DNA from: an uncultured Bacilli bacterium
GTDB lineage: Bacteria > Bacillota_I > Bacilli_A > RF39 > UBA660
NCBI GenBank assembly: GCA_944372545.1
Contig: CALVZO010000031.1
Location: 1 to 40,535, forward strand
Direction of reading: 5' to 3'
Length of the DNA stretch: 40,535 nt
The notes under the pieces were generated by a model that searched no databases, was not told the origin of the DNA, and worked only from the letters and a program-made list of their open reading frames with translations. Below, in pieces: positions 27,508 through 39,753 of this stretch; the stretch's first letter is position 1, and the number at the start of each line of letters is the position of its first letter. Position numbers and translations under genes: made by a program.

Positions 27508-27644
27508 TTTAAAGGGCTATCTATTGAAAAAGATAGTAATTTAAGGTATCGTGAATATGGCAAGAGATATTGACATAAAATAAAAAAAGGGAACATTCAG
27601 TTTATCGTGCTTAATTTCTACTCAAAATACATTAAGTTAGATTA
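27508..27644 (+). other. gap after cotE with a short hairpin
   Basis: CTATCT (27517-27522) and AGATAG (27531-27536) form a small stem without a U-run. A TTGACA at about 27573 has no matching -10. I see no gene or named RNA here. Confidence 0.3.
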
Positions 27645-27682
27645 GACATTTAATTCAATGAAGAATTAAGTGTCATTTTTTT
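27645..27682 (+). terminator. terminator downstream of cotE
   Basis: A 12-bp stem (27645-27656 with 27663-27674, one G-U), 6-nt loop, seven T (27676-27682). Confidence 0.8.
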
Positions 27683-27789: not shown

Positions 27790-28065
27790 ATGGCAGTTAA
27801 ATTAAGATTAAAAAGAATGGGTTCAAAACAAAAACCATTTTATAGAATAGTTGTGGCTGATTCTCGTAGTTCAAGAGATGGTCGCTTTATCGAAACAATT
27901 GGTACTTATGATCCAATTAAAGGTAGCGATAAAGTAACTATCGATGAAGAAAAAGCATTAACTTGGTTAAAAAATGGGGCAGAACCTACTGATACAGTAA
28001 GAAATATTTTATCACATGCTGGTGTTATGAAAAAACATGCTGATTCAAAAAAGAAAACTAAATAG
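27790..28065 (+). CDS. rpsP: 30S ribosomal protein S16
   Basis: S16 binds 16S rRNA early in 30S assembly. The 91-residue protein is of normal length with the conserved [19 protein letters not shown] start, [15 protein letters not shown] and TIGTYDP, and a lysine-rich tail. AAAAAGGAGGC precedes the ATG. I take this ATG and reject in-frame upstream codons, because the promoter lies between. The khpA start follows after 8 nt. In most Firmicutes rimM, trmD and rplS come next; here the operon stops after khpA at a terminator. Confidence 0.97.
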
Positions 28066-33480: not shown

Positions 33481-36400
33481 ATGGAAGATTTAAGAAGATT
33501 TTTTAAAAGTATTAATTTTGAATATAAAAATGTATTTGATAATACAGTTATTGAAAAAGTAGTATATAAAAAAAGTGATAAATTATATAATGTTTATTTA
33601 AAAAGTAAAGAAGTTATTGATTATGATATAATTAATGAATTATTTCAATGTGGAAAAAAGATGATTAATGGGGAATTTCCTTGTTATATTACAATTAATT
33701 ATGAAAATATAATAGATAAAGATATTGAAGAATATATTAAAAGAATTATTAGTAATGTTGTATTTGAACACCCTTCTTTAATGGGGCTTGAAAATAGTTT
33801 TAAAGAATTAAAAGATAATACTATTTATTTAGAAGTAGGGAGTATCGGTGAAAAGAAAGCCTTAAGTAATTATAGTGAATATATAATATCTAATTTAAGT
33901 AATTTTGGTATTGGTACTTATGAAGTAGAGATTTTAATAAATGATAGTTTAAAAGAAGAAATTAAAAAAGAAATTGAAGATACGAAAAAAGTTAAATTAG
34001 AGAAAAAAGAAGAAAGTCCAGTTATTTTTGGGTTTCATAAAGATGGGGAAGTTACTAAAATAAAAAATATAGTGGGGGAAGTTAAAAATCTCATTATTGA
34101 AGGTTATGTTTTTGGTATTGATAATAGTGTGAGAAAAGGACAAAAAGGGACCGCTTATATTATTAATTTAAAAGTAAGTGATAAGACTGATAGTTTTTTA
34201 GTAAAGTTTGTTAGATTTAATGAAGAAGAATATAATCAAATATTAAAGAATTTAAAAGTAGGTAATTGGTATCGTATAGTAGGTAATGTTGAGATGGATA
34301 ATTACTTAAGACAAATGATTTTAACTGGTCGGAGTATTGAAAAAATCCCAAGTAAAGATATAGTTATTAAAGATGAAGAAGAAGAAAAAAGAATTGAATT
34401 ACATACACATACTATGATGAGTGCGATGGACGGAGTAATTGATGCTAAAAAATTAGTTAAATATGCTCATAGTTTAGGACATAAAGCCGTTGCAGTTACT
34501 GATCATGACTGTTTGCAAGCCTATCCTGATTTATATCATACTGTTTGTGATATTAATAAAGGAATAGAAAATGAAGAAGATAAGTTTAAAGTAATTTATG
34601 GAGCAGAACTTAGTATTGTTAATAATGAAAATGATTTAATTCATAATTTAAAAGATTATAATTTATTAGAGACTGAGTTTGTTGTTTTCGATACAGAAAC
34701 TACTGGATTTACACCATATACTGACCAAATGATTGAAATTGGGGCCGTAAAAATAAAAAATGGTGAGATTACAGGGAGATTTGATGAACTTATTAATCCC
34801 GGAAGAAAATTACCTAGAAAAATAGTAGAACTTACAAATATAACTGATGAAATGTTAAGTGATAAAGATACCGAAGAAAATGTTGTTAAAAGATTTATGG
34901 AATTTATTAAAGATGCTCCTTTAGTTGCCCATAATGCTAAATTTGATATTGGTTTTATAAGTGCTTCTTATAATAAATATAATTTAGGAGAATTTACAAA
35001 TACAGTAATTGACACAATGAGTATGGCAAGATTACTATATCCTAATTGGAAAAATCATAAACTATCAACATTAGTAAAACAATTAGAAGTTCCTTGGGAC
35101 GAAGATTCTCACCATCGTGGAGATTATGATAGTGAAGGAACTGCAATTGCATTTTATAAAATGTGTAAAACTTTAGATAATCGTAATATTGAAACTACTA
35201 CTAAATTATATAATTCAATAGATTTAGAAGAGTTATTAAAGTTTTCTCGACCTTTTCATATGTCTGTGTTAGTTCAAAATAAAGTGGGCTTAAAAAATTT
35301 ATTTAAGATAATTAGTTACGCTAATACAAAATATTTGTTTAAAGGAGATCAACCGAAACTTCCAAGAGATGAATTAAATAATCACAGAGAAGGTTTACTT
35401 TTTGGAAGTGGTTGTGTTAATGGCGAAATATTTACTTCGGCATTTACTAAAGAAGATGAAGAACTTGCTAAAATGATGCAATATTATGATTATGTTGAAG
35501 TACAGCCTCCAGAAGCCTATATGCATTTAACGCAAATGGATTCTAGTCCAATAGATAGTATGGCTGATATTTTAACTCATATTAAAAAAATTGTAAGAGT
35601 AGCAGAAGAAGCGGGTGTTTTAGTTTGTGCAACCGGAGATGTCCATCATTTAAGAAAAGAAGATAAAATATATAGAGAGATTATTGTTACTCAAAGATTT
35701 AATGGTAAACTTCACCCTTTAAATAGAAGAGATGTAAGTGTTCCTGATATGCATTTTTATACAACAAGAGAAATGCTTGATGCCTTTAATTTTTTAGGAG
35801 AAGAAAAGGCTAAAGAAATTGTTATAACTAATCCAAGTATTATTGCTAGTAAAACCGAAATTGTCGAAGTTATTATCGAAACTGGGGGAGTACCATTTTC
35901 TCCAAAAATTGAAAATTCCGCTCAAATTGTGGAAGACATGGTTTATAGTAAAGCCAAAGAGTGGTATGGCGACCCACTTCCTGATAATATAAGAGAAAGA
36001 ATTGAACAAGAATTAAAAGGTATTATTGGTGGGGGATTTGATGTTATTTATTTAATTGCCCAAAAGTTAGTAAAAAAGAGTAATGATGATGGCTTTTTAG
36101 TCGGATCGCGTGGTTCAGTAGGATCTTCTTTTGTTGCTACTATGATGGGGATAACTGAAGTTAATCCTCTTCCTTCTCATTATCGTTGTCCAAATTGTAA
36201 ACATAGTATTTTTAAAAATGATAAGGGGGAAGATTTAGCAATTGAATATGGTATTGGTTTTGATCTTCCCGATAAATTATGTCCAAAATGTAATACTAAA
36301 ATGATTAAAGATGGGGAAGATATGCCATTTGCTACCTTCCTTGGATTTAATGCTGATAAAGTACCCGATATCGATTTAAATTTTTCTGATTTAAATCAAG

Positions 36401-37806
36401 CCGCAGCGCATGAGTATACAAAAGTATTATTCGGAGAAGATAATGTTTATAGAGCGGGGACTATCGGAACAGTAGCAGAAAAAACTGCTTATGGTTTTGT
36501 TAAAGGTTATTGTGAAGATAAAAATATAATCATGAGAAATTTAGAAGTTGAAAGACTTGCATCAGGTTGTGTTGGTGTAAAAAGAACAACCGGTCAACAC
36601 CCAGGTGGTATCGTAGTTATTCCGGGTTATATGGACGTCTTTGATTTTACGCCTTATCAATATCCAGCCGAAGATGTAAATGCTGCTTGGCGAACTACAC
36701 ATTTTGATTATCATGCCATTGATCAAGATGTTTTAAAACTAGATATTTTAGGTCATACAGACCCAACTCAATTAAGAATGTTACAAGATTTAACCGGAAT
36801 TGATGTAAAAACTGTTCCTTTTGATGATAAAGAAACAATGGGCTTATTTTTATCTCCAGAGCCTCTTGGAGTTACGAAAGAAGAGATTATGAACGATACT
36901 GGTACTCTAGGAGTTCCTGAATTTGGTACCGGATTTACAATTGGAATGCTTAGAGATACTAAGCCAACAACTTTTGGCGAACTTATTAAAATTTCTGGGT
37001 TATCTCATGGTACGGACGTATGGCTTGGTAATGCCCAAGAATTAATAAGAAAAGGAATAGTACCTTTTAAAGAGGTTATTGGGTGTCGTGATGACATTAT
37101 GGTTTTCTTAATTCAAGCCGGTATGGAGCCATTAAAAGCCTTCAAAATAATGGAATTTGTTAGAAAAGGTAAAGCAAGTAAAGAGCCAGATACTTGGGCA
37201 AAACATAAGGAGACAATGGAAAATGCTGGTATTCCGGACTGGTATATTGATTCTTGTCAAAAAATAAAATATATGTTTCCAAAAGCCCATGCGGCGGCTT
37301 ATGTAATGAGTGCTTTTCGGATTGCTTGGTTTAAAGTACACCGTCCTGCTGAATATTATGCATCTTATTTTTCTACTCGTTTTGATGATTTTGAAATTGA
37401 AACAATGATTAAAGGCTATGATGCAATAAGATCAAGAATTAACGAAATACTAAGTAAAGGCTATGATGCTACTAGTAAAGAAACATCTCTTTTAGAAACA
37501 TTAAAACTAGCCTTAGAAGCAACTGCTAGAGGCTTTGTATTTGGAAATATTGATATAAAGAAAAGTGATGCTAAAAACTATGTAATAGGAGAAGATGGTA
37601 AAACATTAATCTCACCATTTAGAACATTAGATGGACTAGGAGATGCAGTTGCCAGTCAAATAGTAGAAGAAAGAAATAAAAAAGAATTTTACTGTATTGA
37701 AGACTTTCAAAATAGAGGTAAAGTAAATGTTTCTACCATGGATAAACTTAGAAGTTTAGGAGTTTTTGATGGTATGCCTGAATCAGCACAATTAAGTTTA
37801 TTTTAA
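33481..37806 (+). CDS. polC: DNA polymerase III PolC-type alpha subunit with proofreading exonuclease
   Basis: PolC is the main replicase of low-GC Gram-positives. The 1441-residue protein has the full domain order: N-terminal OB region (about 190-290), PHP domain beginning IELHTHTMMSAMDG (about 303), a DEDD exonuclease inserted in it (VFDTETTGF at about 402, HNAKFDIGF, HHRGDYDSEGTA), then the rest of PHP, the polymerase with VGSRGSVGSSF (about 875), a four-cysteine zinc finger (CPNC and CPKC, about 902-940) and the catalytic VPDIDLNF (about 960). LKLDILGH holds the third aspartate. The PHP here keeps its histidines, unlike DnaE. AAAGGAGTAAC precedes the ATG. Confidence 0.97.
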   Translation: MEDLRRFFKSINFEYKNVFDNTVIEKVVYKKSDKLYNVYLKSKEVIDYDIINELFQCGKKMINGEFPCYITINYENIIDKDIEEYIKRIISNVVFEHPSLMGLENSFKELKDNTIYLEVGSIGEKKALSNYSEYIISNLSNFGIGTYEVEILINDSLKEEIKKEIEDTKKVKLEKKEESPVIFGFHKDGEVTKIKNIVGEVKNLIIEGYVFGIDNSVRKGQKGTAYIINLKVSDKTDSFLVKFVRFNEEEYNQILKNLKVGNWYRIVGNVEMDNYLRQMILTGRSIEKIPSKDIVIKDEEEEKRIELHTHTMMSAMDGVIDAKKLVKYAHSLGHKAVAVTDHDCLQAYPDLYHTVCDINKGIENEEDKFKVIYGAELSIVNNENDLIHNLKDYNLLETEFVVFDTETTGFTPYTDQMIEIGAVKIKNGEITGRFDELINPGRKLPRKIVELTNITDEMLSDKDTEENVVKRFMEFIKDAPLVAHNAKFDIGFISASYNKYNLGEFTNTVIDTMSMARLLYPNWKNHKLSTLVKQLEVPWDEDSHHRGDYDSEGTAIAFYKMCKTLDNRNIETTTKLYNSIDLEELLKFSRPFHMSVLVQNKVGLKNLFKIISYANTKYLFKGDQPKLPRDELNNHREGLLFGSGCVNGEIFTSAFTKEDEELAKMMQYYDYVEVQPPEAYMHLTQMDSSPIDSMADILTHIKKIVRVAEEAGVLVCATGDVHHLRKEDKIYREIIVTQRFNGKLHPLNRRDVSVPDMHFYTTREMLDAFNFLGEEKAKEIVITNPSIIASKTEIVEVIIETGGVPFSPKIENSAQIVEDMVYSKAKEWYGDPLPDNIRERIEQELKGIIGGGFDVIYLIAQKLVKKSNDDGFLVGSRGSVGSSFVATMMGITEVNPLPSHYRCPNCKHSIFKNDKGEDLAIEYGIGFDLPDKLCPKCNTKMIKDGEDMPFATFLGFNADKVPDIDLNFSDLNQAAAHEYTKVLFGEDNVYRAGTIGTVAEKTAYGFVKGYCEDKNIIMRNLEVERLASGCVGVKRTTGQHPGGIVVIPGYMDVFDFTPYQYPAEDVNAAWRTTHFDYHAIDQDVLKLDILGHTDPTQLRMLQDLTGIDVKTVPFDDKETMGLFLSPEPLGVTKEEIMNDTGTLGVPEFGTGFTIGMLRDTKPTTFGELIKISGLSHGTDVWLGNAQELIRKGIVPFKEVIGCRDDIMVFLIQAGMEPLKAFKIMEFVRKGKASKEPDTWAKHKETMENAGIPDWYIDSCQKIKYMFPKAHAAAYVMSAFRIAWFKVHRPAEYYASYFSTRFDDFEIETMIKGYDAIRSRINEILSKGYDATSKETSLLETLKLALEATARGFVFGNIDIKKSDAKNYVIGEDGKTLISPFRTLDGLGDAVASQIVEERNKKEFYCIEDFQNRGKVNVSTMDKLRSLGVFDGMPESAQLSLF

Positions 37807-37873: not shown

Positions 37874-37903
37874 TTGCGTATTTTTATAAATTAGGTATAT
37901 AAT
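37874..37903 (+). promoter_or_regulatory. promoter of the structured RNA
   Basis: TTGCGT (37874-37879), 18-bp spacer, perfect TATAAT (37898-37903). Start predicted at G 37910, exactly the first base of hairpin 1. Confidence 0.7.
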
Positions 37904-37909
37904 ATAAAT

Positions 37910-38051
37910 GAACAAGAAGAAACAAAAATTTATTTTCTGTTTGTTCAAAAGGACATAAAAAAGAGACATTTATTCTCGTTGCTAAATGCTCTTTAGTCCA
38001 ATTTGATTGGTTTGGAGCATCTATTCATTGTTGAGTAGATACTCTTTTTTA
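37910..38051 (+). ncRNA. candidate structured RNA of about 140 nt between polC and ku
   Basis: The predicted transcript folds into three hairpins. Hairpin 1: GAACAA (37910-37915) with TTGTTC (37941-37946), with inner pairs AGAAA and TTTCT. Hairpin 2: GGAC (37951-37954) with GTCC (37996-37999), AAAGAG (37960-37965) with CTCTTT (37989-37994) and CATTTA (37967-37972) with TAAATG (37983-37988). Hairpin 3 is a terminator: GAG and ATCTA (38015-38023) with TAGAT and CTC (38036-38044) and six T. CCAAT (37998-38002) with ATTGG (38006-38010) is an extra or competing stem. No ORF with a ribosome binding site fits. It matches no RNA family that I recognise (not 6S, SRP, tmRNA, T-box or a known riboswitch core). 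Confidence 0.6.
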
Positions 38052-38094
38052 TTGTAAATAAGAATAATTTAGAACTAAAAAATGAAATATAAAA

Positions 38095-38124
38095 GATTAG
38101 TTTTCTTTATTTTGGAACATATTA
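38095..38124 (+). promoter_or_regulatory. SigG-like promoter candidate of ku
   Basis: GATTA (38095-38099), 18-bp spacer, CATATTA (38118-38124), close to the forespore SigG pattern GHATR-N17-18-CATnhTA. A start near 38131 would leave little of the ribosome binding site, which weakens it. Confidence 0.25.
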
Positions 38125-38138
38125 TAAATGGTGATGTT

Positions 38139-38894
38139 ATGAATTATCAAACAGCAATATCTTTTGGTCTTGTTCATATTCCAGTACTTATGAATAATGC
38201 TATTAAAAATAACGATGTATCTTTTAATTTACTTCATAAGAAATGTAAAGAAAGATTAGAGTATATAAGATATTGTCCTCATTGTAAAACTAAAGTTAAA
38301 AATGATGAAATAGAAAAAGGTTATGAATATAAAAAAGATGATTATGTAACTTTTACTGATAATGATTTTGCTAAATTAAAAAGTGAAAATGATAAAATAA
38401 TTGAAATAATATCTTTTGTTGATATTAATGAAATAGATCCGATATATTATGAAAAAAGTTATACTTTAACTCCTAATAATAGTAGTAAAGCCTTTAATTT
38501 ATTTAAATGGGCTTTAAGAAAAAGTAAGAAAGTTGCTATTGCTAAGACTATTTTAAGAAATAAATTATATTATGTAGTTATAAGATTTGGTTATGAAAAT
38601 ATAATTATGGATACACTATATTATGAAGAAGAAATAAAATTGCAAAGAGAGAAAATGGTTAAAGATTTTTCTGATAATGAACTTAATATGGCTTTAAAAT
38701 TAATTAAAGCAATGAGTGCTAAATTTACTCCCGAAGAATATATAGATGAGTATCAAAATAATTTAAAAATGGCTATCGATAAAAAAATTAAAAGGAAAGA
38801 TATTAAAAAGATTAAAAGTAAAAAGAAAAGAAATATTAATGATTTAATGACTGCTTTAGAAGAGTCTTTAAAGGAACAAAATGAACGAAAATAA
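38139..38894 (+). CDS. ku: bacterial Ku protein (NHEJ)
   Basis: Ku binds DNA double-strand ends and recruits LigD for non-homologous end joining. The 251-residue protein begins MNYQTAISFGLVHIPV, matching the family start (xxISFGLVxIPV), then FNLLHKKCKERL, YIRYCPHCK and KGYEYKKDDYV, with a basic C-terminus. I take the ATG at 38139, after GGTG at 38130-38133; the open frame upstream to 38082 adds residues not found in Ku. The ligase gene overlaps its end by 14 nt. Because a terminator sits at 38015-38050, it needs its own promoter or readthrough of the upstream RNA. Confidence 0.93.
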   Translation: MNYQTAISFGLVHIPVLMNNAIKNNDVSFNLLHKKCKERLEYIRYCPHCKTKVKNDEIEKGYEYKKDDYVTFTDNDFAKLKSENDKIIEIISFVDINEIDPIYYEKSYTLTPNNSSKAFNLFKWALRKSKKVAIAKTILRNKLYYVVIRFGYENIIMDTLYYEEEIKLQREKMVKDFSDNELNMALKLIKAMSAKFTPEEYIDEYQNNLKMAIDKKIKRKDIKKIKSKKKRNINDLMTALEESLKEQNERK

Positions 38895-39753
38895 ATTTTC
38901 AAAATTAAAACCGATGTTATTAAAAGAAATAAAAGAACCCTTTAATAATAGTAATTATTTATATGAATTAAAATTTGATGGAACAAGAACTTTAATATAT
39001 ATAGAAAATAATAATATTTTAATTAAAAGTAGAAGAAATGTTATTTTAAATGATGTGTATCCAGAATTATTAGAAATAAAAAATATTACTAAAGATAAAT
39101 GTATATTTGATGGTGAAATTATCTTAACTATTAATGGAGTACCTAATTTTTCTAAATTACAAGAAAGGGCTAAATTAAAAAATAAATATAAAATAAAATA
39201 TATGGAAGATAATTACCCAGTTACTTTTGTTTGTTATGATATTTTATATAAAAATAAAGATTTAACTAATTTAACTTTAATAGAAAGAAAAAATATACTA
39301 AATAAATTTAAAGATACTAATGTATTTATAAAATCTATTGTTTATAATGATGGTATTAATTTATTTAAGTTAGTAAAATTAAATAATTTAGAAGGAATAG
39401 TAGCCAAAGAAAAAACAAGTATTTATAAATATGGTATTAGAACTAGTAGTTGGCTTAAAATAAAAAATTTAAAAATAGAAGAATTTTTAATATGTGGTTA
39501 TATAAAAAATTTAAATAATACTATAAGTATAATTTTAGGCGAGTTTAAAAATAATAAATATTATTATGTTGGTAAAGTAGTATTATCTAATAAACATGAA
39601 TTATATGAAAAAATAATTAAAGAAAAAAATATATCTAATTATTTAGAAAATTATAATAATAATCAAGTTAATTTTATAAAAGTAAAATATAAAATAAATG
39701 TAAAATATATGGAAAGAACTAAAAATAATCATTTAAGAAATCCCCATATATAG
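38881..39753 (+). CDS. ligD: ATP-dependent DNA ligase (LigD ligase domain only)
   Basis: The 290-residue protein contains only the ligase module of LigD: adenylation motif I with the lysine in ELKFDGTRTL (about 31-40), motif III FDGEIIL, motif IV LEGIVAKEKTS, motif V SWLKIKN, and an OB-fold tail with EEFLICGYIKN. The polymerase/primase and phosphoesterase domains found in many LigD proteins are absent, and no separate genes for them are in the window. It overlaps ku by 14 nt, so both are made together as a minimal two-gene end-joining system. It stops inside a long bidirectional terminator. Confidence 0.92.
   Translation: MNENKFSKLKPMLLKEIKEPFNNSNYLYELKFDGTRTLIYIENNNILIKSRRNVILNDVYPELLEIKNITKDKCIFDGEIILTINGVPNFSKLQERAKLKNKYKIKYMEDNYPVTFVCYDILYKNKDLTNLTLIERKNILNKFKDTNVFIKSIVYNDGINLFKLVKLNNLEGIVAKEKTSIYKYGIRTSSWLKIKNLKIEEFLICGYIKNLNNTISIILGEFKNNKYYYVGKVVLSNKHELYEKIIKEKNISNYLENYNNNQVNFIKVKYKINVKYMERTKNNHLRNPHI

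Follow-up and report, generated by a model that had tools for sequence, protein, structure and literature searches.

A family of small structured RNAs facing convergent hydrophobic peptide genes in gut Bacilli, with a probable orphan type I antitoxin copy between polC and ku

The window, that is, the whole stretch of 40,535 nucleotides analysed here, comes from an uncultured Bacilli bacterium and carries a small non-coding element in the gap between polC and ku, together with a related element further upstream. The gene beside ku (38881-39753) encodes a ligase in which the polymerase and phosphoesterase domains of LigD were not found. The features of the locus are as follows.

27554-27682, plus strand: second putative orphan antitoxin RNA, B/C-type (L214), matched by covariance model R3 (E 2.5e-8)
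33481-37806, plus strand: polC, the upstream neighbour, recognised by its Pfam domains
37874-37879, plus strand: -35 box TTGCGT, read from the sequence
37898-37903, plus strand: -10 box TATAAT, read from the sequence, after an 18-nt spacer following the -35 box
37874-37903, plus strand: promoter as a whole, from the sequence and the homologues
37910-38051, plus strand: putative orphan type I antitoxin RNA (A-type) of about 142 nt, from matches to covariance models R1, R2 and R3, with the toxin ORF absent downstream
37910-37946, plus strand: hairpin 1, from folds; A-type relatives keep its position and differ in stem sequence
37950-37962, plus strand: AGGAC segment and A-rich tract, with a presumed function, from alignments, toxin-strand sequences and duplex predictions
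37951-37999, plus strand: hairpin 2 (GGAC:GUCC, GAG:CUC, CAUUUA:UAAAUG), from covariation
38015-38050, plus strand: hairpin 3 and U-run, the predicted antitoxin terminator, from covariation
38052-38138, minus strand: place expected for the toxin gene, with no start-to-stop hydrophobic ORF and no ribosome-binding site left
38139-38894, plus strand: ku, the downstream neighbour (PF02735, E 3.6e-43)
38881-39753, plus strand: ATP-dependent DNA ligase, LigD-type ligase domain only (PF01068, E 1.7e-28)

A preliminary description had placed a promoter, three hairpins, a U-run and a transcription start at 37910 in this gap, and these coordinates were confirmed. The G at 37910 is the first base of hairpin 1, the stem of hairpin 3 spans 38015-38044 and the U-run follows at 38045-38050; the promoter and the hairpins are shared by relatives. 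The interval was also said to contain no ORF, which held at a threshold of at least 60 amino acids. The RNA folded at -35.7 kcal/mol against a shuffle mean of -23.1 (z -3.56, with 0 of 200 shuffles as low), and the stem of hairpin 1 beat 200 of 200 shuffles. Since the arms of hairpins 2 and 3 are repeats of one another, the minimum-free-energy fold merged the two into a single long hairpin; what is conserved is the form described earlier, with the two hairpins separate. A generic promoter scan of the window did not list the promoter at 37874-37903 because its -35 box matches in only three of six positions, and a generic terminator scan reported no terminator at hairpin 3 because its stem has a C-A mismatch. 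A permissive Rfam covariance-model search returned no match in the window. On its own, the window sequence, with its weak signals, makes a case for an RNA gene that is suggestive only.

When 38 genus genomes were searched at the DNA level, true homologues were identified in G036 (two copies), G033, G006 and G032. The element is nearly palindromic and matches on both strands, and the homologues were oriented by their promoter. Common to them were a TATAAT-like box, a hairpin 1 of variable sequence, an (A)GGAC/A-tract/GAG segment and hairpins 2 and 3, with TTAGTATATAATATTA or a similar sequence at the place of the window promoter and a U-run in nearly all oriented copies. A -10 hexamer with at least five of six matches was located upstream of 44 of 53 homologues, where random positions predict about 20. 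In folds, the hairpin 1 stem read GAACAAG/UUUGUUC in the window and GAAGAAA/UUUCUUC in three relatives (L005, L053 and L002). The covariance model R1, built from five sequences with the window among them, scored this training member at 121 bits and found members in 22 of 145 family genomes and in 21 of the 38 genus genomes.

The members are of two sub-types, A, to which the window copy belongs, and B/C, and their covariation was judged against slid and shuffled controls. The MAFFT alignment of 22 A-type sequences had 86.4% of cells paired and 15 of 26 pairs changed on both sides, with slid controls paired at 42% at most; for 27 B/C-type sequences the values were 93.5% and 18 of 22, with slid controls at 41% at most. 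Hairpin 2 was 96% paired in the A-type (helix 3, double changes in three of six pairs) and 98.6% paired in the B/C-type (helix 2, five of eight), and hairpin 3 had double changes in 11 of 13 A-type pairs (helices 4 and 5) and in 10 of 10 B/C-type pairs. The A-tract, taken as at least six A in 8 nt, was present in 27 of 27 B/C-type and 21 of 22 A-type sequences. The calibrated E-values of the covariance searches are rough: R2, whose training set includes the window copy, matched the window RNA at E 3.8e-13, and R3, the B/C model built without that copy, matched it at E 2.1e-4 in a search of the window. Separately built A and B/C models recovered each other's members, window included. As far as sequence comparison reaches, these data establish the window RNA as a real RNA gene, which may be transcribed. 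The stand-alone structured RNA with its own promoter and terminator proposed in the preliminary description is supported by the homologues and by the covariation, including the 15 double-changed A-type pairs, which are the kind of evidence it had named; the RNA is also undescribed, as had been stated, in that no Rfam family matches it.

The position directly upstream of ku had led to the proposal that the RNA either binds bacterial Ku as a partner or acts as a leader, with its terminator controlling ku-ligD. The gene ku was found in 33 of the 38 genus genomes, but the RNA was present at one of the 30 ku loci examined, the window's alone. Among the 29 loci without it are those of the closest relatives by Ku (77% identity), G003 and G001, which both keep the polC-ku adjacency; their polC-ku gaps, 62 bp long in G003 and about 310 bp in G001, where a different small ORF lies, gave no RNA match. 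The other RNA copies occupy unrelated intergenic sites away from ku, and because the homologues adjoin unrelated genes and often face a convergent gene, the RNA is not a leader. Both forms of the ku proposal are therefore contradicted and a Ku-linked role is extremely improbable; ku appears not to be functionally tied to the RNA, and their adjacency would be a matter of chance, the RNA being a remnant at a random intergenic site. For small RNA genes adjacent to repair genes, synteny should be checked before any functional connection is made.

Two other clues from position were pursued and dropped. The arms of hairpins 2 and 3 could pair alternatively (UAGAUGCUC:GAGCAUCUA in L053), as in a cis-acting leader or attenuator, yet the next gene is often convergent or distant. 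A recurring neighbour gene was sought, and only one group of related ATPase-type proteins recurred, at five loci, three of which resemble one site in close species. Separately, the polC-ku gap of G001 (L082, G001:C15) was seen to hold a hydrophobic ORF of 27 residues that has a ribosome-binding site (MKNKNQTIGITMLLVVILFLTAALFSI), the RNA being absent.

Comparison of the copies revealed a second component. Downstream of most of them, the opposite strand carries a tiny hydrophobic ORF of 19-33 residues, and the 3' end of the RNA runs over the stop codon of this ORF. With the stop required to lie within 45 nt of the RNA end, 71 of the 91 loci with enough flank, which include related copies and are not all independent, carried such an ORF, and 58 also had a Shine-Dalgarno-like site; 1154 random-position controls gave 91 ORFs (8%), four of them with such a site (0.35%). 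A few of the 71 (e.g. L002 and L062) are probably chance ORFs, in line with the control rate. Examples of the peptides are MDYLVILIIALVMIAYILNKD (L052), MEYLIILVIILVIIDKMTNKKD (L051), MNKKDFLILSLIILIFLLILLLFIVLI (L060) and MRKSEKYLCTIIILLIIVILIILIKIVPTV (L044). TATAAT-like boxes lie upstream of both the RNA and, by inspection, the peptide ORF, forming convergent promoters. In a reciprocal test, the DNA pattern of the A-type toxin start was searched in named genomes with the RNA model unused, and 19 of 56 places had the RNA on the opposite strand, convergent and 61-86 nt away; some of the remaining places, for instance in Flavobacterium, lie in unrelated phyla and are plainly due to chance. The method of this test is independent of the earlier searches, and its material overlaps in part with theirs, some genomes being the same. 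The carriers were metagenome-assembled genomes, mostly from gut, labelled Bacilli, Tenericutes, Erysipelotrichaceae or similar.

Searches of the peptides against Pfam and NCBIfam profiles gave nothing above cut-off, and a PHROGs search gave only hits at E 0.07-0.22 to an uncharacterised family. The conserved Trp and the PXXXG signature of Fst are absent from typical peptides. The A, B and C peptides are dissimilar to each other, and a common origin of the three is unproven. Phage-borne modules were also sought and set aside: 14 viral contigs matched the toxin-start pattern, none with the RNA, and the C-toxin pattern found nothing. In A-type toxin genes (e.g. L029, L052, L054 and L072), the first ATG comes right after the Shine-Dalgarno site and the toxin start about 16-19 nt further on in another frame, an offset that could possibly reflect translational coupling or a decoy start.

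Read from sequence, the layout of the complete modules is that of a putative type I toxin-antitoxin module of the par/Fst kind, in which the peptides would be toxic and the RNA would repress them. One of two facing promoters would give the RNA of about 120-145 nt and the other an mRNA for the hydrophobic peptide of about 19-33 residues. The transcripts would run into each other, giving the toxin mRNA a 3' end complementary to hairpins 3 and 2 of the RNA, and the ribosome-binding site and first start codon of the toxin would be complementary to the segment between hairpins 1 and 2 (AUAGGAC in the A-type). Most likely, the AUAGGAC segment and the shared terminator hairpins would let the RNA pair with the toxin mRNA, forming a duplex that would block translation and be exposed to RNase. 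The toxin mRNA leader would hide its own Shine-Dalgarno site, leaving uncontrolled transcripts initially silent.

Several features of the complete modules bear on this scheme. Hairpin 3 overlaps the end of the convergent ORF, and, as a peculiarity of these modules, antitoxin hairpin 2 recurs as a copy at the 5' end of the toxin mRNA. AUAGGAC is, in many A-type modules, a repeat of the DNA strand spanning the toxin Shine-Dalgarno site and start codon (CATAGGACCACCTCC, GGAGGUGGUCCUAUG). The CATAGGAC repeat was likewise seen in many of them, cognate pairs being not clearly better than non-cognate ones; in duplex predictions of the antitoxin 5' part against the toxin start region, the permutation p for a cognate advantage was 0.15 in the A-type and 0.02 in the B/C-type. 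A motif common to the family members may explain this weak preference. The Shine-Dalgarno site was paired in the minimum-free-energy fold of four of four toxin leaders, whose overall stability only sometimes beat shuffles.

As for termination, antitoxin terminators were found in the module loci. Hairpin 3 was also considered as the toxin mRNA terminator and dropped, there being no clear U-run after it on the toxin strand, and a generic scan for a toxin mRNA terminator found one only at hairpin 1 of L052. On the toxin strand, the reversed hairpin 2 is followed by a T-run, the complement of the conserved A-tract; this combination, a second peculiarity, is probably the toxin mRNA terminator, a role that either it or the reversed hairpin 1 may serve.

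The genome assembly to which the window belongs (about 90% complete) contains five antitoxin loci. An intact pair with the peptide MKKKDLFITFLILIIILYIVSLMILCIKK occurs at G000:C35:2970-3092. At L212 (G000:C10:15275-15392) the toxin frame is intact with ATC where relatives start with ATG or GTG, and this toxin is possibly inactivated. The other three loci are toxin-less: C2:27799-27917, window 27554-27682 and window 37910-38051. The RNA at 27554-27682 is closely followed by a small ribosomal-protein-like ORF, which starts at 27790, and no toxin ORF was found beside the RNA. An R2 search of this genome yielded no A-type locus besides the window's, and no A-type toxin was found. The window RNA is therefore best read as a putative orphan type I antitoxin. 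We put the probability that the element at 37910-38051 is the antitoxin RNA of a type I module whose toxin gene was lost at roughly 0.87.

The many dispersed copies, some in tandem clusters, and the missing ORF in some of them would also fit a dispersed non-coding small RNA or small mobile repeat that is free of any toxin, with the small ORFs as antisense by-products. This is very improbable, since the peptide sequence is conserved and the ORFs have ribosome-binding sites and a TATAAT of their own upstream, lie mostly outside the RNA and occur together with a Shine-Dalgarno site at 58 of 91 loci against 4 of 1154 controls. A different question is whether the orphan antitoxin was kept after toxin loss to silence in trans the toxin mRNAs of mobile DNA (anti-addiction) or of paralogous modules, which would be a claim added to the orphan-antitoxin reading and no alternative to it. 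The window copy has kept its promoter, three hairpins and U-run intact and its divergent hairpin 1 still pairs, the RNA is also kept in other toxin-less copies (L053 and L005), and the start-codon-pairing motif is common to the family, with non-cognate duplexes nearly as stable as cognate ones. But a recent loss of the toxin would look no different, the assembly that includes the window yielded no A-type toxin, and one terminator pair is broken (C-A), so a trans role seems rather unlikely. Equally tentative is the broader view of a large uncatalogued type I class, with several modules per genome in reduced-genome gut Bacilli, whose orphans, two of them in the window, would act as trans-acting immunity.

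The family is widespread in the order. R3 matched 36 of the 38 genus genomes, with up to 20 matches each, a few weak ones being antisense duplicates, and some in tandem clusters; it also matched 214 of 288 sampled genomes of the order, and among the genomes sampled at class level a single one from outside the family matched. The carrier genomes are about 1-1.5 Mb in size, with several to about 20 matches each. Clusters of three to five antitoxin copies were observed at G010:C17 3780-5918, G036:C46 151-1009, G032:C6 18946-25483 and G021:C7 11925-13468, with copies in some cases about 370 nt apart. A permissive Rfam search of seven module loci gave no match, and a search of the open-access literature for RF39 with toxin-antitoxin returned no paper. 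Judged by Rfam, Pfam, NCBIfam and open-access papers, the module family is previously uncatalogued. A lone RNA of unclear role is thereby placed in a module family whose proposed mechanism can be tested. This raises the questions of why so many putative toxins under RNA control are present in the small genomes of uncultured gut bacteria, and whether antitoxins that have lost their toxin confer immunity.

Two further observations were made in the module loci. A sub-threshold Rfam hit to ssNA-helicase RNA lay at L044 2460-2501 on the minus strand (41.2 bits against a cut-off of 41.5). L007 (1501-1620) and L008 (G031:C68, G007:C44) carry a small RNA-like element of another kind, which has the same -10 region (TTAGTATATAATATAAATAAGGAGACGAAAAATCG...) and its own terminator and may belong to a further small RNA or toxin-antitoxin family.

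Among known systems, the txpA/RatA, bsrG/SR4, yonT/SR6 and C. difficile RCd modules consist of a toxin mRNA and an antisense RNA that overlap at their 3' ends. The present modules have a similar predicted 3'-end overlap. Ibs toxins are enterobacterial and have a different RNA partner; the present peptides are likewise tiny and hydrophobic, with a weak Pfam hit to Ibs (E 1.2) that is below cut-off and does not make them members by score. For yonT/SR6, the overlap of toxin mRNA and antisense RNA at the 3' ends is described in PMC5848175. Unlike the Gram-positive convergent modules, the module loci here have no Rfam match. The closest resemblance is to par of pAD1, whose toxin mRNA and antitoxin arise from convergent promoters and overlap at the terminator, with a second pairing over the translation start through direct repeats and a toxin leader that hides the Shine-Dalgarno site (PMC7472228). 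As in par/Fst, the modules described here have convergent promoters, a small RNA antitoxin, a hydrophobic peptide of about 30 residues and a Shine-Dalgarno site predicted to be hidden in the toxin leader; the transcripts would also overlap in the terminator region, and many A-type modules have a segment repeated at the translation start that may serve for pairing. They differ in a three-hairpin antitoxin of 120-145 nt, against about 40 nt for RNA II (PMC7472228), in a toxin leader with a copy of antitoxin hairpin 2, and in peptides that lack the tryptophan and PXXXG signatures and match no Pfam or NCBIfam family. As in type I systems in general, the family joins the genes of an RNA and a hydrophobic peptide into an antisense unit, of which the window copy retains the RNA.
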